From the IMG/VR virus record IMGVR_UViG_3300043420_000229, positions 1-20,683 of that record: 20,683 bases of DNA; one strand, 5' to 3'. Each line of letters starts with the position of its first letter. Positions within the stretch are counted from its first letter, which is position 1. Source of the DNA: a virus. The translations under genes and the position numbers were made by a program. A model generated the notes under the pieces. It did no database searches. It was not told the origin of the DNA and saw only the letters and a list, made by a program, of their open reading frames with translations. Positions 7,909 to 20,008 of the stretch are shown here, in pieces.

Positions 7909-8331
7909 TCAAGCCTGCGTCAGATCGCCCTCCCGCGTCCTGTATTGCACCTCGTAGGTGTGGACCCACCACATGCTGCTGAGGTCTGCAGGATCCAGCT
8001 GGGGATTGTCGTTTGTCGGCACGATGTCAGTGGCCAGGCCGCCGATGGTGGTGTCGGCCATGATCAACGCATGGGCTGAGACGATGATCGGATCCACCAG
8101 CACGTCAGGGATGTCCCCCCGGCAGTGAACGATCACCTCCACGTCCATGGTGTGGTGCAGCTTGCAGGTGCTGTGCCTCTGTGCGCGACCGGGGCCAGGC
8201 TGCACGATCAGCACGGGAGCTTCAGCACGGGCGATGGCTGCCGCCCTGCTGCGGTAGACCGCCGTGACTCCGGTGGTGGAGCCCAGGGTGGTGGTTAGCG
8301 CTGCGAGGATCTGCTCACGAATGCTGGTCAT
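7909..8331 (-). CDS. tail terminator / minor tail protein, gpU-like (140 aa)
   Basis: This 140-residue protein sits just before the tube gene, where the tail terminator (lambda U, or DUF3168-type) is found. It starts MTSIREQILAALTTTLGSTT, with an N-terminal helix, then APVLIVQPGPG, then HHTMDVEVIVHCRGDIPDVL with a strand and helix, and ends MWWVHTYEVQYRTREGDLTQ. The helix, beta-sheet, helix, strand order and the terminal V.YEVQYRT strand match tail terminator proteins, which form the hexameric ring that caps the tube and joins it to the head. The ATG at 8331 overlaps the upstream stop as ATGA. The call rests on fold pattern and position. A head-closure role is the alternative. Confidence 0.7.
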   Translation of the reverse strand: MTSIREQILAALTTTLGSTTGVTAVYRSRAAAIARAEAPVLIVQPGPGRAQRHSTCKLHHTMDVEVIVHCRGDIPDVLVDPIIVSAHALIMADTTIGGLATDIVPTNDNPQLDPADLSSMWWVHTYEVQYRTREGDLTQA

Positions 8332-9116
8332 GGTATCGCCGCTCCGATGGCGTTGACAAGAGCGGTGACCCTGGCATCGAGCAAGGCGAGGTCGAGCGAT
8401 TCGCCGATGGAGTAGAAGGCGAGGCGGGCGTCGGAATAAAAAGACGCTGGATTGGTTGCAAAAACAAAAACGTTTCCGTTAAACGGTATTTGTGATGGTC
8501 TGCTTTCGGTGTAATTTGTAGAGTTTGCGCGAATAGCATACGACGCTGAGCTTGATCTTGAATGCCCTGCAAAGCCAGTGACTGGTGTGCTTACTGGGCT
8601 ATCGTCAAAAGAGTTGCGATTTCTGCTGCCAAATGTCCCAAAAGAGCTACGAACTACGTGAGTGGTTCCTCCATCGGTAACACCGGCACCCATGTAAACC
8701 CTTGATGTGCCCGTTGAAGGTGCTGTTGAAATAAAACAACATTGATGCACGCTATTTTGCGGATCAGCATTGTTGTTCCTGTTGCTATCTAAATACTTCG
8801 TATTTCCATTGCCCTTCAAACCCGTCTCCCTGTCGTAATCCCCCGCCACGAAGTTGTTATTGGTAGGCGCTGTGCCCACCAGCGGCACCAGCGCACCGGC
8901 CAGCGTCCGAGCACCAGCCATGATGCACGATGCCTTGATGGCAGCCCAAATGCCATCGGCCTTGCAGCCGACCACAAATGCGTTGATGGCATCCTTCACG
9001 CCAATCTCCAGCGCCTGCCCGTCAGCTGCCTCAACGGCGGTGATGTAAGACTGCGCGTCAGGGTCGTATCCTGCCGCCGCCGCGAACTGATACGGGTCGA
9101 TGTAGATGATGCTCAT
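8328..9116 (-). CDS. fibre-like / LamG-like virion protein with AT-rich core (262 aa)
   Basis: This 262-residue protein has an N-terminal helical part (residues 1-80: DPYQFAAAAGYDPDAQSYIT, then KDAINAFVVGCKADGIWAAI and CIMAGARTLAGALVPLVGTA). A region rich in Asn, Ser, Gly and Thr follows (82-235: TNNNFVAGDYDRETGLKGNG, TKYLDSNRNNNADPQNS, and strands such as GNVFVFATNPASFYSDARL). The end is a short helical tail. I have seen the GIW.AIKA..I..GARTL.GALVPL..TAPTN..F...DY.R.TGL.G pattern in structural proteins of cyanophages and cyanobacterial prophages, where it precedes a lectin-like beta-sandwich. The DNA for about residues 95-230 (8430-8835) falls to roughly 35-52% GC against about 65% in flanks. 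Junctions on both sides are ATGA overlaps. Receptor or glycan binding is inferred. Confidence 0.72.
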   Translation of the reverse strand: MSIIYIDPYQFAAAAGYDPDAQSYITAVEAADGQALEIGVKDAINAFVVGCKADGIWAAIKASCIMAGARTLAGALVPLVGTAPTNNNFVAGDYDRETGLKGNGNTKYLDSNRNNNADPQNSVHQCCFISTAPSTGTSRVYMGAGVTDGGTTHVVRSSFGTFGSRNRNSFDDSPVSTPVTGFAGHSRSSSASYAIRANSTNYTESRPSQIPFNGNVFVFATNPASFYSDARLAFYSIGESLDLALLDARVTALVNAIGAAIP

Positions 9117-11683: not shown

Positions 11684-14185
11684 TCAGAGGGTGTTGTTGC
11701 CGCGGCAGAAGGCCTCGGGATGGCGCACAGCCACGTCAACGTCCTGCAGTGCAGTGACGCGCACGCCGCCGCTCTTGTCGTTGGCGTAGGGGTTCACTTG
11801 GATGTCCAGAGCGCCCCACATACCCATGATCATCTGGCTCCACACTCCGAAGAACACATCACCAGTGGCCACCTGGTTGGAGCGCACGGTGTTGTAGCCG
11901 TTGACGGTGCCGCCGGGCTCGAGCACGAACTGAGCGGTGTTGCTGGCCTTCTCGGTGGTCTTGAAGCCGCCGTAGATGGTGCTGTTTGTCAAGTAGCTCA
12001 TCGCGCCGATGTCGGCGTTGTCAGCGGCAACCTTCGACTCCATGCTCACCAGTTCGGCATAGGTCGGGTTGGCAGCGTTGAAGTCCTCGGTGTTGATGCC
12101 GGTGACCAGCTTGAGGCCTTCAGGCTGGCTGCTGGAGCCCAGGCCATAGAGGGCAGCCCGGTCAATCTCCAGGGCGATCACAGTGGCCAGCTCAGTGCGG
12201 ACCATCTGCTCGACGTCGATGGAGCTCTGCAGCATCAGGCGGCGGGAGAACTCGGTGAAAGCGCCGAGGGTCTTGGCCACCAGGCTCACCTGATCAACGG
12301 TGGGCTCGGATTCGGTGGGGTCGCCACCTTCAGCCACCCAGTAGGCAGTCGCGGCGCCGGTCTGGCGAGGGATAGCCACGGGGCCTTGCAGGCCGGTCAG
12401 CATGGTCACGCCGAGGGTGCTCAGGGCCAGGCGGTTGCGGAGCAGCTCGATGAAGCTGCCGGGGCGAGCATCGGTGAACACCAGATCGCCAGCGCTGGAG
12501 GCGTTGCTGACGGTCAGATCGCGGGTCAGAACGTCGTTGGGGGCCAGGATGCCGCGAGGGGTCACGCCCATGCGCTGAGCAGTGGCGTCGGACACTTCGC
12601 GCTCGAAAGCGGCGGCCTCGTAGGCAGCGCGATCGTTGGGCATCATCTGCGCGCGGATCGCCTTCACGAAGCTGAACGAGCGGGCTTCTTTCTCGCTCAG
12701 GCCGATGTCAGCAGAACCACCACCAGAAGCGATGGGCTGAGCAGAACGAGCAGGAGCCGCAGGGGTTGCAGGTTGAGCAGCGGGACGCTTGGCGATCTCG
12801 GCGAGCACCGAGCGCATGGCGTCAGCTTCAGAGGCACCGGATTCGATCAGGCCCTGGGCCAGATCGTCCGCCTTGTGCTCACGGCAGAGGGAAGTGATGG
12901 AGGCGACGCGGGTGCGCTCATCGGCCGCAGCCTGAGCCCGCACTGCCTCCATGTCGATGGTGGAGGGTTCCATGTGGTTGCTGTTGTTGTGGGTCAAGGG
13001 TGCGACCGTGGCCGCGGCAGCACCGGGGGGACCGGAGCTGCTGGTGGCCTTGCGGCCTTGTCCGACCGTGTGGTCGGCGGGGATTGACACGGCGGAGACT
13101 TCCATCGGAGTAAAGGCTGTCACCAGTGCCATGCCTTCCCGGCTGGTGGTGTCGAGCGGTGCATCGATCGAGTACATGAACGACACGTTCCTGATCGTTC
13201 CACTCTCCCAGTCCTGGCGGCGCTTGTATTCTTCGCTGCCCTCGATCTTGGTGTTGGGGCTCCAGCGGGTGCGCACACGGCCGCGGCGATCGTCGCCCAT
13301 CCATGCACGCTCAACGACGCCTAGGACGACTTCAGCGTTGTGGTTCCACAGCCATGGCGCCGCGCCACTGTTCAGGCGGCTCATGTTCATGGCCTCGGGG
13401 TCGTGGCTGAGCACCTCCATCCCGAAGTATCTCTCTACCGGCTGCTCTGAGCTGAATGTGAACTCCACCACCTCAGGATCTTCATCAGCGCGCGCAACCT
13501 CAGCCACCACCGCTGAGCGGTAGAGGGGCTGTGAATTGAGGTCGCGCAGATCCATCGTCGAGGAGTGGCCCTTTGCTGCCATGCTATCGGCTGCCGGTTC
13601 AAACAAAATCGGCTCGTAGTCGTTGTCGTCCAGCCACTGCCGCGCTTGGGTCACGGTGAAGCGCTCGACGTCAAAGCGAATCGACTGGATCACCACCGGC
13701 TCATCGCCGCGGATGCCGTAGATGAAGTCGACGCCAGCGCCACCGGCGTCGCTCTCGCGCCTGAACCGCTCGAACTGGTCAGGGTCGCGCAGTCTGGCGG
13801 CGTGCTCGTTCGGGTATGGCCTGGCCTCGATACTGCGCTCGCCTCGCGCTTTCTTGATGCTCTCGCCCTTGGCGGTGCTCCATGTCTGTCCAGCATCACC
13901 GCCCCAGGCTGCCCATGCAACACGACCGGGTGAGGGGTAGCCGTCCTCGTCTGGGCTGAAGCCTTCGCCCTGTTTGTCCACCTCATGCCTGGCGAACCAG
14001 GCCGCCATGGTGATCACCGTGTCGGGGCTGAGCTCATCGCCGGAGAGAATCTGGCTGGCCCTGCGGGCTGCCACGTCGGTTCCGCCAGCTTCGCCGTCTT
14101 CCTTCCACGCGCGGTAGCGCCGTGCCTCTGCCCTCATGCCTTCCGTGGGCATTAGGTTGATCTCGGTGCCGTTGACGTTGGCCAT
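11684..14185 (-). CDS. prohead protease fused to HK97-fold major capsid protein (833 aa)
   Basis: One 833-residue frame encodes what are usually two genes, protease and capsid. Residues 1-115 (AWKEDGEAGGTDVAARRASQ, WFARHEVDKQGEGFSPDEDG, then RVAWAAWGGDAGQ) and 119-200 (EARPYPNEHAARLRDP ... EPILFEPA) are accessory domains often found before phage proteases. Residues 205-395 form an HK97-type serine protease with the expected triad: H282 in LWNHN, S335 in RNVSFMYS and E362 in PMEVSAVSIPAD. A Thr/Pro/Ala linker leads to a helical delta or scaffold segment (405-465), then a Pro/Ala stretch (468-490). The HK97-fold capsid domain follows from about 495 to 833 (PGSFIELLRNRLALSTLGVT, SLVAKTLGAFTEFSRRLMLQ, SSQPEGLKLVTGI). 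No ribosome-binding site precedes M405. The ATG overlaps the portal stop as TGATG. Confidence 0.92.
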   Translation of the reverse strand: MANVNGTEINLMPTEGMRAEARRYRAWKEDGEAGGTDVAARRASQILSGDELSPDTVITMAAWFARHEVDKQGEGFSPDEDGYPSPGRVAWAAWGGDAGQTWSTAKGESIKKARGERSIEARPYPNEHAARLRDPDQFERFRRESDAGGAGVDFIYGIRGDEPVVIQSIRFDVERFTVTQARQWLDDNDYEPILFEPAADSMAAKGHSSTMDLRDLNSQPLYRSAVVAEVARADEDPEVVEFTFSSEQPVERYFGMEVLSHDPEAMNMSRLNSGAAPWLWNHNAEVVLGVVERAWMGDDRRGRVRTRWSPNTKIEGSEEYKRRQDWESGTIRNVSFMYSIDAPLDTTSREGMALVTAFTPMEVSAVSIPADHTVGQGRKATSSSGPPGAAAATVAPLTHNNSNHMEPSTIDMEAVRAQAAADERTRVASITSLCREHKADDLAQGLIESGASEADAMRSVLAEIAKRPAAQPATPAAPARSAQPIASGGGSADIGLSEKEARSFSFVKAIRAQMMPNDRAAYEAAAFEREVSDATAQRMGVTPRGILAPNDVLTRDLTVSNASSAGDLVFTDARPGSFIELLRNRLALSTLGVTMLTGLQGPVAIPRQTGAATAYWVAEGGDPTESEPTVDQVSLVAKTLGAFTEFSRRLMLQSSIDVEQMVRTELATVIALEIDRAALYGLGSSSQPEGLKLVTGINTEDFNAANPTYAELVSMESKVAADNADIGAMSYLTNSTIYGGFKTTEKASNTAQFVLEPGGTVNGYNTVRSNQVATGDVFFGVWSQMIMGMWGALDIQVNPYANDKSGGVRVTALQDVDVAVRHPEAFCRGNNTL

Positions 14186-15702
14186 CAGTCCTCGGTGGTC
14201 GGGTCAGGTTCCTGCTCTGGTGTGGCGTTCGGTGCGCCGCCCTGCTGATCGTCGGCCGGATTGGTGTCGAACTGCAGGCCCAGCTGTTCGGCCCGGTCCA
14301 CTTCATTGGCACGGGCGATCAGCAGATCCTCGATGTCGCCACCGCTCTCGGCGACGATCTGCGCCTGAGTCTTGAAGCCAGCCCGCACGGCCTTGGTGTA
14401 GGCGTCGACTTCCTTCTGTGGATCCACCCAGGCCCAGCCGCGGGGATACCACTGAACGGCCTCGTAGCGCTCCGGCATGACCTCGTAATCGGGCAGCAGC
14501 AGCTGACCAGCGCCAACAGCAGCGGCCAGCCACCGCTCGTAGATCGGCTGCAGCAGGTGCTCGATCATGAAGTCCTGAAGCATCCGCCAGTGCTCGCGGT
14601 CCTCCAGCAGGCTCAGCCGGCTGCTGCTGTAGTTGCTCTGGCTGAAGTCGCGGCTAATCGTCTCGTAACTGCAGCCGATCGCGGCGGCCACGGAGCGCAG
14701 CATCCCACGCAGGAACGGCTCGAACTGCCCATCAGGGGCGTCGAGCTGGGGAACGTTGACGGTTTCGCCGGGTGCTAGGTACTTGAAGACTCCAGGCTCG
14801 AAGCGAGTCACCTGATCGCCGTCGAGCACCTCGTCGCCCTGGAGCTCACCCTCGGGTGACTGGATGAAGCCCATCAAGCTGCTGTTGGCCCTGGCTCTGA
14901 CCACCTCGGCCTCCTCGTAGCCGTCCAGGTGGTGGAGTCGCTTGATGGCGCTGGCCACCCATGGAGCGCCGCGGGTCTGGCCGGGTCGCTCGGAAACGAA
15001 CAGATGGATGATCTCGGCGGCCGGCACCTCGATCACTTCACCGCCGCGCGCGTTGGCAATGTCGCCCGGGTGCGTTGTGCGGAACGCGTAGCTGATCGGT
15101 CGGCCCCAACGGTTGACCTGAACGCCCATGCGCCACTGGTTCCCGTTGGCATCCTTGCCGTAGCTCTTGCCCTCGTCGCAGTAGTCCGACTCGATGATCT
15201 CGATGCCGAGGGGGATCCGGCTCCGGCCGAACGGTTCGGGGATGATCCGCAGGAACACCTCGCCGGATTCAGCCACGGCCATGATCGCCAGCCGCAGGAT
15301 CTCGGCCATGCTCAGCCGGCCAGCGACGTGGCAGCGATCAGCCCTGCACCAGGTCTGCCAGGCTGCCTCGACGCGGCGGTTGATCGGCTCGTTCAGCCGA
15401 TTGCCGCGTTGCATCCGCACACGGCCTTGCATCCTGATGCCGCGGCCGACGACGTTGGCGCCGATCGCGCGGATGGCCTGACGGGCGTAGGGCGAATCAC
15501 GGACGAGCTGCCGCGAACGGTTCCGCAGCCGTACCAGGCTGCCGTCAATCTCAGCGTCTGCGCTTGTGCTGCTGGTGATCCAGTTGGCAGTCAGCCGGCT
15601 GGCCAGTGCGCCCTCATAGGCTCGCCTGCGCTTCGGGGTGTGCGCCTCGGGCATGGATGCTGCCTTGCCGGCGATGCGACCGCCGCGTGCTTTGGTGGCC
15701 AT
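14185..15702 (-). CDS. portal protein, lambda (gpB) type (505 aa)
   Basis: The portal is the dodecameric ring at one capsid vertex through which DNA is packaged and ejected. This 505-residue protein is the lambda-type family: RNRSRQLVRDSPYARQAIRA, then NVVGRGIRMQ, then ESGEVFLRIIPE, EIIESDYCDEG, VPAAEIIHLFVSERPGQTRG and PWVASAIKRLHHLDGYEEAE. Toward the C-terminus, SNYSSSRLSLLEDREHWRML and YPRGWAWVDPQKEVDAYTKA are hallmark motifs. The end (about 475-505) is an acidic, Pro/Gln-rich tail. Length matches the family. The ATG at 15702 overlaps the gpW-like stop as TGATG and its own stop overlaps the protease-capsid start the same way, so the three proteins should be made in a coupled fashion. Confidence 0.95.
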   Translation of the reverse strand: MATKARGGRIAGKAASMPEAHTPKRRRAYEGALASRLTANWITSSTSADAEIDGSLVRLRNRSRQLVRDSPYARQAIRAIGANVVGRGIRMQGRVRMQRGNRLNEPINRRVEAAWQTWCRADRCHVAGRLSMAEILRLAIMAVAESGEVFLRIIPEPFGRSRIPLGIEIIESDYCDEGKSYGKDANGNQWRMGVQVNRWGRPISYAFRTTHPGDIANARGGEVIEVPAAEIIHLFVSERPGQTRGAPWVASAIKRLHHLDGYEEAEVVRARANSSLMGFIQSPEGELQGDEVLDGDQVTRFEPGVFKYLAPGETVNVPQLDAPDGQFEPFLRGMLRSVAAAIGCSYETISRDFSQSNYSSSRLSLLEDREHWRMLQDFMIEHLLQPIYERWLAAAVGAGQLLLPDYEVMPERYEAVQWYPRGWAWVDPQKEVDAYTKAVRAGFKTQAQIVAESGGDIEDLLIARANEVDRAEQLGLQFDTNPADDQQGGAPNATPEQEPDPTTED

Positions 15703-16268
15703 CAGAACCTCACGAAGACGTTGCGGGGATCACCCAGGCCCTGCGCGATCTTCTCAGCTGCTCGCTCACGGGCGACGATGGCTTTCAGCTGCGCCTCGCG
15801 CTGCATCAGCAGGCCGAGGTCGTTGCTGGTGTAGCTGCGGTTCCCGATGCTGTATTGCTTCGCGCCCTTGCTGACGATGGCCCTGATGGCAGCCTGAACT
15901 GCGTCCAGATCCTGCTCTGCCTGGCTGCGACCATCGAATGCCGTGGGGTCGCCGGTGAATGACAGGGACGGCAGCACCTCGGTGGTTCCGCTGCCGGTGA
16001 CCACCACCACGGCGCCGGACGTGATGCGGCGCTGCCAGTACCAGGTGCCGGCATCCCATTCGGTGGTTGTGGCTGCTGACAGGGACATGTCCCATCCGCC
16101 GTCAGATCGAGCAGCGCCGGCGGCGGTTGCGCCCTCGCCCGCGGTGTTCGTGCGGAAGTCAATCTGCAGGGTCCAGCTGGCCGATGTGGCCGGGACGTCG
16201 TTGACAGACGCAGCGGGCTCGATCCACTGGATTGTGGAGCCGCTGTAGATCAGGGCGGGAACAGTCAA
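15702..16268 (-). CDS. gpW-like head-tail connector with N-terminal beta domain (188 aa)
   Basis: The gene lies directly before the portal, where lambda has W. The C-terminal 74 residues (115-188: QDLDAVQAAIRAIVSKGAKQ, then YSIGNRSYTSNDLGLLMQRE) resemble gpW: helix, two short strands (QYSIGNRSYTS), helix, and a short hydrophobic end (VFVRF). Residues 1-105 add a beta domain (LIYSGSTIQWIEPA, SWTLQIDFRTN, WDAGTWYWQRRITSG, VVVVTGSGTTEVLP), a fusion also known from other lambda-like phages. gpW fills the portal channel after packaging and is needed before tail joining. The start is a TTG at 16268, preceded immediately by an in-frame TAA; no ATG lies nearby. The ribosome-binding site is weak. It follows an 87-nt gap that holds a hairpin. 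Confidence 0.75.
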   Translation of the reverse strand: MTVPALIYSGSTIQWIEPAASVNDVPATSASWTLQIDFRTNTAGEGATAAGAARSDGGWDMSLSAATTTEWDAGTWYWQRRITSGAVVVVTGSGTTEVLPSLSFTGDPTAFDGRSQAEQDLDAVQAAIRAIVSKGAKQYSIGNRSYTSNDLGLLMQREAQLKAIVARERAAEKIAQGLGDPRNVFVRF

Positions 16269-16299
16269 TTTTTAGCCCGCACAACTGCAGACAGTGTAA

Positions 16300-16327
16300 G
16301 CAGCGCGGAGAATAACCCCCGCGCTGC
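16300..16327 (-). terminator. perfect 9-bp hairpin in the 87-nt gap (possible terminator or attenuator)
   Basis: Between the 354-residue gene (stop at 16356) and the gpW-like start (16268), arms GCAGCGCGG (16300-16308) and CCGCGCTGC (16319-16327) pair perfectly around a 10-nt loop. It is the longest hairpin I found outside coding sequence. No T-run follows on the minus strand (TTACACTG), so it is not a canonical intrinsic terminator. It could still pause or attenuate transcripts entering from the two-gene cassette, or protect the 3' end of a processed message. Confidence 0.45.
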
Positions 16328-16355
16328 CCTTGCCGCCGTCTAGCGAGGCGTGAAG

Positions 16356-17420
16356 CTACAGCTCAACCGTCTGCGCGTTGATGCCCGTAGATGGCTCTGA
16401 GCTTTGAGCGAGCCTGACGGCTGCCATCAACTCCTGACCCATCTCCTTTAGCCTTGGCATATCATCCTTCACGGTGATCAGCCCTAGTACGTCAATGCAC
16501 CGCATCTCATCCAGTAATTGGGTGCCATGCGTGCGAGAAAGCGTTTGCAGGTAACCCAGCAGCTCATGGATGGCTTTGCTGGCATCGTGTAGGCGGGCGT
16601 TGTAGGTGCGCACCTCCTGCTCCAGCGTTTGCCGCTGCTTTCGATCGGCTGCATCCAGCTGCTCACGGACGTGATCCACTTCAACCTTGGCCGTGCGCTC
16701 CGCTTTGGTTTCGCGGATTTTGGCCATGGTCTCCTTGAATCGCTCTGCATTGGCAGGCGTCACATCAACCGTTCGATGGCGAGCAGCTTCCACGCGGGCG
16801 GCGGTGGCAGCTTGGAACGATGCCGGAGCTGATCGGATCAGCCCCTGCTGCTCCAGTGCTGGGCGGAGTTCCTCGCGGGCAGCGCGGACATCCTCAGCGG
16901 TGGGGCCGTTGCGGCGTTGATTGCGCTCGGCGTTCTGACACGCCAGCTCCCAGACCTTGGCGATGCCTTGGGCGGCATCGGGGTCGTCGAGGATGGCGGG
17001 ATTCCATGCTCCTCCAGTGCCATCTTCATGGCGTAGCTGTCTCCTAGGAATCAACGGCCGAAGCAGATCGGCTTGTCGCGTGGTCAAGGTAAACCCACCT
17101 CGTAATGACGAGGCGGATCCTTCAATCAAGATGCTTGCCTCATGTATGACACGCTGGTAATCAGCCGCCCTTGGCGAAACAGATTGCAGCCATTCTGGAA
17201 GCTCGTCCTCGAGATACGATTCCCAGCTTTGCTTGCCGTTATCACCTCGAAATAGGCGATTATTGTAGATGTAGCTAAGCGCTGCACCAATACCTTCTGA
17301 GCAGGCTTTGATCTTGTGGTGGTGATTGTCGCGGTCTCGCTTTTCTGAGTCACTCATGGGGCCGCTAGGCAGCCCCAGAGCTTCCTCATTGGCGACCACC
17401 GCGAGGGCGGTCGTTTCCAT
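16356..17420 (-). CDS. accessory coiled-coil protein, DUF3102-like N-terminus (354 aa)
   Basis: This 354-residue protein has no equivalent in the lambda head order. It starts at an ATG at 17420 that overlaps the upstream stop (TGATG), with GAGGAGG 7 nt before it, one of the best ribosome-binding sites in the window. Residues 30-125 (HKIKACSEGIGAALSYIYNN, QSWESYLEDELPEWLQSVSP, RAADYQRVIHEASILIEG) resemble DUF3102-type helical domains, which look like HTH or ParB-related modules. Residues 222-285 are a long charged helix likely to form a coiled coil (MAKIRETKAERTAKVEVDHV). The C-terminus is short and helical. GC drops to about 45% near 17230. I infer a DNA- or protein-binding regulator or exclusion factor; structural and packaging roles cannot be excluded. 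Confidence 0.75.
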   Translation of the reverse strand: METTALAVVANEEALGLPSGPMSDSEKRDRDNHHHKIKACSEGIGAALSYIYNNRLFRGDNGKQSWESYLEDELPEWLQSVSPRAADYQRVIHEASILIEGSASSLRGGFTLTTRQADLLRPLIPRRQLRHEDGTGGAWNPAILDDPDAAQGIAKVWELACQNAERNQRRNGPTAEDVRAAREELRPALEQQGLIRSAPASFQAATAARVEAARHRTVDVTPANAERFKETMAKIRETKAERTAKVEVDHVREQLDAADRKQRQTLEQEVRTYNARLHDASKAIHELLGYLQTLSRTHGTQLLDEMRCIDVLGLITVKDDMPRLKEMGQELMAAVRLAQSSEPSTGINAQTVEL

Positions 17421-17959
17421 CAGGCGACCTCCTCAACCTTGCTGGCTTCGAGGATGGCCATAGCGCGAGCAGGGAGCGCCAGCGGCACGTTGCTGGCAGC
17501 CAGGCTTTTGGTGCAGGCCTGCAGCTTCTTCAGCGCCGGCTCAACGTGCTGCTCAAACACGTTGAGAACACGAATTGCCTTTTCGCGGGCGTCATTGGCC
17601 ATGACCAACCGCACGCTGTCGCCAGCGGAAACCAGTTCGATGCCAAGAGCTGCCCGAACGGCTGCGCGGGCTTCGCGCAGGTATTCCTTGGCGGTGTCAT
17701 TGCTCACCTCAAGGGCGGCGGCAATGGCGCTGTAGCTGGTGTCGCGGCCGTATTCCTCGAACACGATTAGCGCCTTCATGAAGGCGTGAGGCACGGCGCC
17801 ACGCTTTGTGGCGTGCTCAAACTCTTGAAAGAGCACCTCGCTGATGCCGTGCTTGCTGGCGAGGATGGCCTCAACCTGCTCAGCCGTCAAAGCCAGGTCG
17901 CGAAATTTGGGGCGGTCGCTGGCCTCAACGGACCAACGCGAGAAGTCAAACGGAGCCAT
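17420..17959 (-). CDS. accessory helix-turn-helix protein (179 aa)
   Basis: I choose the ATG at 17959 (MAPFDFSRWSVEASDRPKF), giving 179 residues; an ATG at 17989 adds MADLGLASLS and is the main alternative. The frame stays open to a TTG at 18085, but that region looks like a promoter, so I reject it. The protein is all helical. Residues 74-100 (TSYSAIAAALEVSNDTAKEY) have the layout of a helix-turn-helix like those of sigma region 4 or LuxR-type domains. Residues 21-65 (LTAEQVEAILASKHGISEVL) may be a second helical bundle. The C-terminal half has leucine-rich helices (VLNVFEQHVEPALKKLQACT). It shares an overlapping junction with the coiled-coil gene, so the two are probably made together. Function is unknown; DNA binding is inferred. 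Confidence 0.72.
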   Translation of the reverse strand: MAPFDFSRWSVEASDRPKFRDLALTAEQVEAILASKHGISEVLFQEFEHATKRGAVPHAFMKALIVFEEYGRDTSYSAIAAALEVSNDTAKEYLREARAAVRAALGIELVSAGDSVRLVMANDAREKAIRVLNVFEQHVEPALKKLQACTKSLAASNVPLALPARAMAILEASKVEEVA

Positions 17960-18056
17960 TGATAATGAAGCCAACCCGAGGTCGGCCATGAAGGTGGTGC
18001 TGGCCGAGGGCCAGGAGCGGGCCGGGGTCGAGACCGGCTTGTTCCGCCTGTCGCAG

Positions 18057-18089
18057 ACAATAGCAAGCCTGCCACAGGCTGCCAATAGC
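18057..18089 (-). promoter_or_regulatory. promoter-like site with operator-like repeats
   Basis: In the 162-nt gap after the large terminase, the minus strand carries TTGGCA (18085-18080), exactly 17 nt, then TATTGT (18062-18057), a fair fit to a sigma-70 promoter (5/6 and 4/6). The spacer contains the inverted repeat GCCTG-TGG-CAGGC (18079-18067). The heptamer GCTATTG occurs at 18089-18083 and again at 18064-18058, 25 nt apart, flanking the inverted repeat. This arrangement suggests a regulated promoter for the two-gene cassette, possibly autoregulated by its HTH protein. It is inferred from sequence only. Confidence 0.45.
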
Positions 18090-18121
18090 CAGTCGCCTGC
18101 ATTATCGAGACGGCGCTGCGC

Positions 18122-20008
18122 TCACCAGCCGGTAACGAAGCCGGGGCCGCTGGGCTCTGATCGACGGCGGCGCTTCGGTTTGTCGGTGGCCCCAGGCTTG
18201 CGGCGCTCCTCTGCTGCCGCCTCCAGCTGATCCCAAAAACTCGCTCTGCTGTACCTGCGCTTCACCAGTTCCAGGATCGCCAGGCTGTAGACGGTGAGAT
18301 CGAGCGGCTCGTTTCTGGCGCCGCTGGGATTCTCCCAACCGAGCACCTGAAACCCTTTGACCATCTTCGGCACCAGCCGCTCACAGGTCAGGCCCTGCAG
18401 GTACTCCTCCGTCACGTCATTGGGCAGGTGGATCGCGCCAGGGCCGGGGGCGTCTTTCTTGAGCCTGGCGTAAATCGTGCGCTTCAGGGTGTCGCCTCCC
18501 ACCTGATACAGCGTCAGACCTTTCTTGATCGTCTGCCCTCTGGCGTTGACATCCACCCTGGAGCCCTTGCCCAGTGCTGGCGCTGCCTTGGTGCTGCTGC
18601 CCTTCAGTGCCACCACGCCCTCCCTGGCTCGCTGCCTGCAGTACTCGTAGGCCTCCTGGGTGAAGTGGCCGCCGGTATCAACGCCGCAATGCCGGACCGT
18701 CAGAGTGCCGCCGCCCTCCATCGGCCATTCCGTGCGCCTGATGCTGTCGATCTGTTCCCAGGCGTCATCCTCAGCCGGGCTGCCCTCGACTTTCTGATGC
18801 CAGATCCTCCACATCTCCTCCCCACGACCAAAGCCCCAGACGGTGGTTTCAAGCCAGGTGTCTTGGGTGTCAACGGCCATCAGCAGCAGGACGGCGCCCT
18901 CGGGGCAGGTGCCGCTTGAGAACGTCTCCGACTGAGCCCTGGCCATCAAGCCCTCAGCGTTGATCACCGCGACTGCCTCATCCTCCCAGGCCTCGGCTGC
19001 GCGTTTGTTCACCCAGCCTTTGAGCAGCAGGGGGTCGGTCTTCGCCCTGAGAAACTCATCACGGATCTGCTCCCAGCTGGTCCAACCAGCCGGGGCATAC
19101 CACCCAGGCAGGTGAAAGCCTGCGGTGATGCCGTCGCCCTTGGCGGTCGCCTGCCACGCGGCACCGGCCAGCATCGTGGTCTTGTGATGCTCGCTGACGC
19201 GTTCTCCACAGGCCGGGCATTGCGCGAACACCTCACCATCGGGCCGGTCCCACTTCATGTGCTCGCGCCAGCGGAGCACCTCAAGCGATCCGCAGCAGGG
19301 CATCAAGACCGCCAGCAGTCGCCGATCCGATCGAGTCTCGTATTCGCTGGTGATCCTGCACATCCCGCGGGTGCCGGGTGTGCTGGTGATCAGCACCTTC
19401 CCCATGGGGAACGTCGACGTCCTGGCTTCTGCGTTCTCCAGGGGGTCGCCCTTATCGTCTGCCTCGAACGGGTAGGACGACACCTCGTCAGCCAGCAGGT
19501 AGGCCGCAGGCATCGACTGCAGGCCGCTGCCGCTGTTCGCGCCGGTGAGAACGAACAGGCCGCCCCTGAATTCTTTCAGGAACATGGTGTTGCCGCTGTC
19601 CCTGGCCCTCGCGGGTGCGATCAGATCCGACAGGACAGGCGTCTCGCGCAGCAGGGGCTCCAGCCGCTGGCGGTTCAGACGCTTGGCCATGTCGAGCGTC
19701 GGCTGCACCAGCAGGGTCGGTGCCGGCCATAGGTGGATGATCGCCCCGAGCCAGTTCAGGACCACCTCGGTCTTGCCCATCTGGCTGCCGAACATGAGCA
19801 CGACACGACGCCACGGGCTGGAGGGGCTGAGGCATTGCAACGGCTCCCGCAGGTAGGGGGTCCGATCGGTGCGCCACGGGCCAGGCTCCGCTGAGCCCTT
19901 GGTCGACAAGACGCGATGGCGATCGGCCCACTGGTCAACCGTCATCGGGTCGGCCGGCATCAGGCCTTCGCTGAATGCCAGGTCGTGCAGCTCGAATGCG
20001 TCAGCCAT
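18122..20008 (-). CDS. terminase large subunit, lambda gpA type (628 aa)
   Basis: This 628-residue protein powers DNA packaging and cuts the concatemer. Its N-terminal ATPase has Walker A GSQMGKTE at 74-81 after VVLMF, Walker B YLLADEVSSYP at 170-180 (acidic pair D174/E175) and the coupling motif ITSTPGT at 207-213. Zinc-type cysteines lie at 238-239 and in CPAC at 264-267. The C-terminal nuclease half has LLLMAVDTQDTWLETTVWGF, with D380 and D383 as likely metal ligands, and RNEPLDLTVYSLAILELV near 565-582 with D570 as another. Both halves follow the GpA family, as does the length. The ATG at 20008 overlaps the small terminase stop by 8 nt. The C-terminus is Lys/Arg-rich (KPKRRRRSEP), perhaps for portal or DNA contacts. 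Confidence 0.96.
   Translation of the reverse strand: MADAFELHDLAFSEGLMPADPMTVDQWADRHRVLSTKGSAEPGPWRTDRTPYLREPLQCLSPSSPWRRVVLMFGSQMGKTEVVLNWLGAIIHLWPAPTLLVQPTLDMAKRLNRQRLEPLLRETPVLSDLIAPARARDSGNTMFLKEFRGGLFVLTGANSGSGLQSMPAAYLLADEVSSYPFEADDKGDPLENAEARTSTFPMGKVLITSTPGTRGMCRITSEYETRSDRRLLAVLMPCCGSLEVLRWREHMKWDRPDGEVFAQCPACGERVSEHHKTTMLAGAAWQATAKGDGITAGFHLPGWYAPAGWTSWEQIRDEFLRAKTDPLLLKGWVNKRAAEAWEDEAVAVINAEGLMARAQSETFSSGTCPEGAVLLLMAVDTQDTWLETTVWGFGRGEEMWRIWHQKVEGSPAEDDAWEQIDSIRRTEWPMEGGGTLTVRHCGVDTGGHFTQEAYEYCRQRAREGVVALKGSSTKAAPALGKGSRVDVNARGQTIKKGLTLYQVGGDTLKRTIYARLKKDAPGPGAIHLPNDVTEEYLQGLTCERLVPKMVKGFQVLGWENPSGARNEPLDLTVYSLAILELVKRRYSRASFWDQLEAAAEERRKPGATDKPKRRRRSEPSGPGFVTGW

Follow-up and report, generated by a model that had tools for sequence, protein, structure and literature searches.

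A two-gene unit occupies the junction between the terL and gpW genes of the virus record analyzed here, and on balance we regard it as a moron-like, early DNA-binding regulator module, probably autoregulated, that was moved into a late-gene slot. The record, which we call the window, is 20,683 bases long and is a fragment of a cyanosiphovirus resembling S-CBS1 and S-CBS3. Both the mosaic history of the unit and its accessory nature are well supported. The two genes, which overlap by one shared base, and their neighbors are:

18122-20008, gpA-type TerL (Pfam E 6e-86 and 2e-70)
17420-17959, minus strand, HTH protein of 179 aa (ORF call)
16356-17420, minus strand, partner protein of 354 aa, its start overlapping the stop of the HTH gene
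15702-16268, gpW-type joining protein (phrog_5774 E 9e-56, phrog_118 E 2e-8)

Synechococcus phages S-CBS1 and S-CBS3, which with S-LBS1 (PMC6157547) we count as the closest known phages, have TerL proteins to which that of the window is 86% identical. Their terminase, joining, portal and head genes and the order of these genes are those of the window, which also encodes a lambda-type portal (Pfam and PHROGs searches). They differ from it in lacking the pair and in having an empty terL-gpW junction, with 29 bp between terL and the joining gene compared with a gap of 1,853 bp in the window; the genes and flanks are real, and the pair does intervene between terminase and gpW, as the initial annotation had it. 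The junction is also empty (29-31 bp, S-CBS1 and S-CBS3 included) in L014-L017, the TerL proteins of which are 94 to 96% identical to that of the window. Most terL-gpW junctions of relatives are shorter than 50 bp and a minority hold inserts of 0.3 to 2.2 kb, and most relatives do not have the pair there, which runs against the idea that it is a constant component of the junction. Elsewhere in the late region, the 188-aa protein at 15702-16268 carries its gpW-like domain at the C-terminus and has an extra N-terminal part (phrog_5774), and an 833-aa protein (11684-14185) fuses a prohead protease-like part (Peptidase_S78, just below cut-off) to the major capsid domain, the major head gene of S-CBS1 being of about the same length.

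Alternative cargo is found in the same slot. In six contigs it holds an HNH endonuclease gene together with a phrog_4652-type gene, and in L018 and others an antisense ribbon-helix-helix ORF lies within the HNH-type insert; the slot of L102 contains a remote version of the pair (type B, below) and that of L012 the start of one. The phrog_4652 protein, to which no function is assigned, accompanies the HNH gene at L018:5349-5936 and also in L013, L021, L026 and L040, and has relatives in 130 phage records, many of them Escherichia phages. Comparable HNH homing-endonuclease inserts of phages include HNHE of skunaviruses, where the HNH gene situated between TerL and portal reportedly has a presumed role in packaging (PMC12724721). 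In its slot the window lacks an endonuclease gene and carries other cargo, yet it keeps the ends of the HNH-type insert found after terL in close relatives. The following features define these ends:

18094-18121, minus strand, left edge of the slot, the 28 bases that adjoin the TerL stop, sharing 93% identity with HNH-type inserts at their left end
16269-16336, minus strand, right edge of the slot, 95.5% identical over 67 bp to the HNH-type insert of L018 at its right end
16337-16349, minus strand, probable remnant of the unit's own terminator, which is intact in relatives, e.g. L006 and L009
16300-16327, minus strand, covarying hairpin of the right edge (stem 16317-16327 with 16300-16310)
16293-16298, minus strand, TACACT, a -10-like element before gpW with TAnnnT equivalents in relatives

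Slot bases are counted here from the one that follows the TerL stop. Bases 1-28 and 1786-1853 resemble HNH-type inserts, bases 26/58-1775 resemble the early-module unit as found in other phages, and the junctions are sharp; the early unit thus lies inside an HNH-type insert. Its arrival would most likely have been by recombination with such an insert, both ends of which were retained. Since the window is a fragment, a second, early copy may lie beyond it, and the direction of the move is thus one that we infer. The junction offers a clear case of gene-order change, in which an insert of the endonuclease type shows where an operon boundary tolerates additions, and different cargo lies between the ends of that insert.

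The perfect hairpin that had been taken to close the cassette is present exactly as described, and it belongs to the slot and not to the unit. Its 11-pair stem is common to inserts unrelated to the pair and shows covariation (8 sequences, with both sides changed in four pairs and a covariation score that no shuffle out of 500 attains); it has no T-run, is not reported by a terminator scan, and adjoins the probable -10 element of gpW. In relatives such as L002, L007 and L009 the pair is followed by a terminator, which in the window is cut off. Of 25 dissimilar empty junctions, 20 have a TAnnnT element 24 to 32 nt before gpW (2000 rounds of shuffling gave a mean of 3.1 and a maximum of 9), and the insert end of the window places TACACT at a similar spot. 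Transcription probably begins anew at gpW, and tolerance of inserts between terL and gpW would then have an explanation; as the junction sequences are related, these observations are suggestive and no proof.

Homologs of the pair are present in about 40 other viral contigs, mostly in the early/replication module, with at most one copy per genome. Close homologs (type A, 58-81% identical) come from IMG/VR contigs in which the surroundings are unlike those of the window; in L002, L008 and L009 the pair is divergent from a primase gene and stands ahead of genes for helicase, methyltransferase, nuclease and recombination functions. Two remote versions were reached, type B through L102 (19 loci) and type D through L163 (15 loci, in early modules). 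Profile comparison with hhalign supports homology of type A with both, giving E 9e-19 for the partner and E 6e-6 for the HTH protein against type D, and E 1e-8 for the partner against type B. The two genes are adjacent in every locus where both could be scored, the exception in spacing being L193, with about 650 bp between them. In a search of 18 records, one copy was found in each of the ten pair-bearing records and the pair was absent from S-CBS1, S-CBS3 and six others. The copy in one of the ten, G026 (L195:8001-9126), has its type B partner gene split over two frames, by a frameshift or an assembly error, and at L198:2900-3166, between primase and a gp43-like gene, all that is left of a type B partner gene is its C-terminal end, which looks like a deletion of the pair. 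Isolated phages gave no match in tblastn searches, for which both proteins of type A and the partners of types B and D served as queries, and two scans of host genome contigs with type A and type D alignments returned no relative.

The early/replication setting of these homologs points to an early DNA-binding or regulatory role in preference to defense or exclusion, and the normal home of the unit would be the early/replication module of cyanosiphoviruses. A place at the head of an early operon is not a general rule, however: type B pairs are divergent from primase or lie between primase and terS. A late function, with the two proteins acting as packaging or head factors of the late operon, could appeal to where the pair lies in the window, between terL and gpW, and to L189, where the pair precedes terS-terL by a short distance. 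We consider this highly improbable given the absence of the pair from S-CBS1, S-CBS3 and most relatives, its own promoter, and its early location elsewhere; a packaging or virion role is disfavored by the many relatives that do without the pair.

Association with primase and helicase genes also raises the idea that the pair is a replication or partition accessory, which would bind an origin or centromere-like site, help primase/helicase or segregation, and could do so from any genome position. The combination of an HTH protein and a coiled-coil partner, common among origin- or centromere-binding proteins, speaks for this idea. In several early modules of types A and B, the palindrome GTAGCAGCGGCTGCTACG or a near variant occurs in the intergenic region between primase and pair (L008:2021-2038, L009:2964-2981, L183:2727-2744, L191:7091-7108, and similar sites) and is a candidate origin or operator. 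It is missing from the window, however; no ParA partner was seen; and G006, which has a primase, and S-CBS3, which has a RepA helicase, lack the pair. We hold a replication or partition role to be unlikely and retain the early regulator as the preferred reading.

Three features are found upstream of the HTH gene:

18057-18085, minus strand, sigma70-type promoter TTGGCA (18085-18080), 17-nt spacer, TATTGT (18062-18057), with a conserved place in four other type A loci
18046-18079, minus strand, inverted repeat GCCTGT...ACAGGC around the -10 element, 87% of cells paired in 5 phages
17960-18050, minus strand, conserved structured 5' leader of ~105 nt with three hairpins, from an alignment of 5 phages

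The promoter-like site proposed in the initial annotation is exact in sequence, and although by score alone it does not rise above chance (one found in a scan, 0.7 expected), a -35/17/-10 layout lies 124 to 127 nt (typically ~126 nt) before the start codon in all five type A loci including the window. L007 has TTGACA-17-TATGAT at this place, and L002 has a weak -35. Similar sites occur 81 to 98 nt before most type B pairs and 76 to 104 nt before most type D pairs, and we find the case for a promoter, made on positional conservation, convincing. The inverted repeat, of general form GCCTGY...RCAGGC, flanks the -10 element on both sides and is a candidate operator. The leader is not coding, because single-base indels separate the phages; across the five sequences 96% of cells pair, with three pairs changed on both sides and 5 of 500 shuffles reaching the score. 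This is modest evidence for an RNA structure from five sequences, and DNA palindromes would explain the paired positions equally well. The stability of the leader by itself is not unusual (z -1.1), and an Rfam search gave only a sub-threshold, chance-level match. We propose that the two genes are transcribed autonomously as one unit, in which a host-sigma70-type promoter would be followed by a structured leader and a translationally coupled pair. Conserved promoter and leader make the regulation of the pair directly testable.

The term moron, which reportedly originates with Hendrix et al. in 1999, denotes transcriptionally autonomous extra phage genes. The layout of a moron, assigned to the cassette at the outset, applies in part. 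The unit is extra between two conserved genes, is absent from that place in close relatives, and has a conserved promoter of its own, judged from sequence alone at five type A loci. It differs from a moron in having no intact terminator, the hairpin not being its own, and no distinctive base composition, and in its cargo, an early-module gene pair with homologs at several other positions. Morons have been noted for the cyanosiphovirus P-SS2 (PMC2784084). A moron in the strict sense, protecting the infected or lysogenic cell by superinfection exclusion or defense, would account for the accessory nature of the unit, its autonomous promoter and its place in a variable slot with alternative inserts. 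Such protection, one of the functions first suggested for the cassette, receives no positive support: no PADLOC model matches the pair at E<=1, close homologs sit in early operons and early/replication modules, the window fragment has no sign of lysogeny, and the annotations of S-CBS1 and S-CBS3 list no integrase. We judge it rather improbable, even though a domain exchange in the partner, described below, could reflect recognition of rivals.

Neither protein reaches a curated cut-off in Pfam, and nothing meaningful was found in PHROGs, in PADLOC or in profile searches of solved structures, which gave no PDB relative above threshold; the pair represents an undescribed family of cyanophage proteins that come in twos. 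Purifying selection acts on both genes, with dN/dS of about 0.1 for the HTH gene and 0.17-0.27 for the partner gene. AlphaFold models were poor (mean pLDDT 55 for the HTH protein and 46 for the partner), and a Foldseek comparison with the PDB, which gave E 0.3 at best, was set aside on this account. The parts of the two proteins, with helices and winged-helix region as predicted in the low-confidence models, are:

HTH protein: N-terminal helices, a winged-helix region at residues ~58-118, and a long helix at 124-156
Partner protein: helical, with a long helix at ~240-298 and a conserved C-terminus

Pfam HTH matches (HTH_10 at E 5e-4, sigma70_r4 and HTH_28) all stay below curated cut-offs. In several relatives of the HTH protein such matches fall at one and the same place, and there the low-confidence model has three helices, a beta hairpin and a long helix, which suggests an HTH domain in the 179-aa protein. 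The likeness of the partner to DUF3102, claimed earlier, could not be upheld. Neither the window nor ten other pair-bearing records contain a match to PF11300 at E<=10, membership was rejected, and what likeness there is comes down to an overall look of small helical domains.

We propose that the HTH protein and its helical or coiled-coil partner form one DNA-binding regulatory complex early in infection, which would use the inverted repeat at the -10 element to control the promoter of the pair and may act in trans on promoters or origins of the phage (or host). Early host-takeover or anti-defense proteins, made from a strong host-type promoter, would share the early location of the relatives and the promoter type. 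The HTH-type signals and the inverted repeat point instead to DNA regulation, and no family match was found; we rate such a function as improbable.

One part of the partner has been exchanged among phages:

17007-17375, minus strand, exchanged N-terminal domain of the partner (residues 16-138), two alleles

The two alleles are 31 to 36% identical, in proteins that are otherwise 74 to 88% identical in the C-terminal part. The window's allele is shared with L002 (58%), and its HTH protein is closer to those of L007-L009. This pattern suggests that the exchanged segment may be a recognition domain. A bolder idea is that the pair is a portable cyanophage regulatory unit, kept at one copy per phage in several positions and endowed with an exchangeable recognition domain; docked in a late slot and transcribed from a host-type promoter, it would impose early control signals on co-infecting relatives. 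We think this distinctly improbable; if true, an ordinary early regulator would have been made into a device of competition or immunity.

The exchanged segment also accounts for what is AT-richer in the cassette. GC content is 0.513 over 17001-17350, which is this domain, in agreement with the initial annotation that parts are richer in AT than their neighbors; over the whole slot the effect is weak (0.600, compared with 0.623 for the window, at the 19th percentile of equal-length windows) and is no foreign mark. The lowest GC of the window lies at 8328-9116 (0.457 around 8451), a stretch that overlaps a 262-aa ORF and is possibly a recent acquisition.
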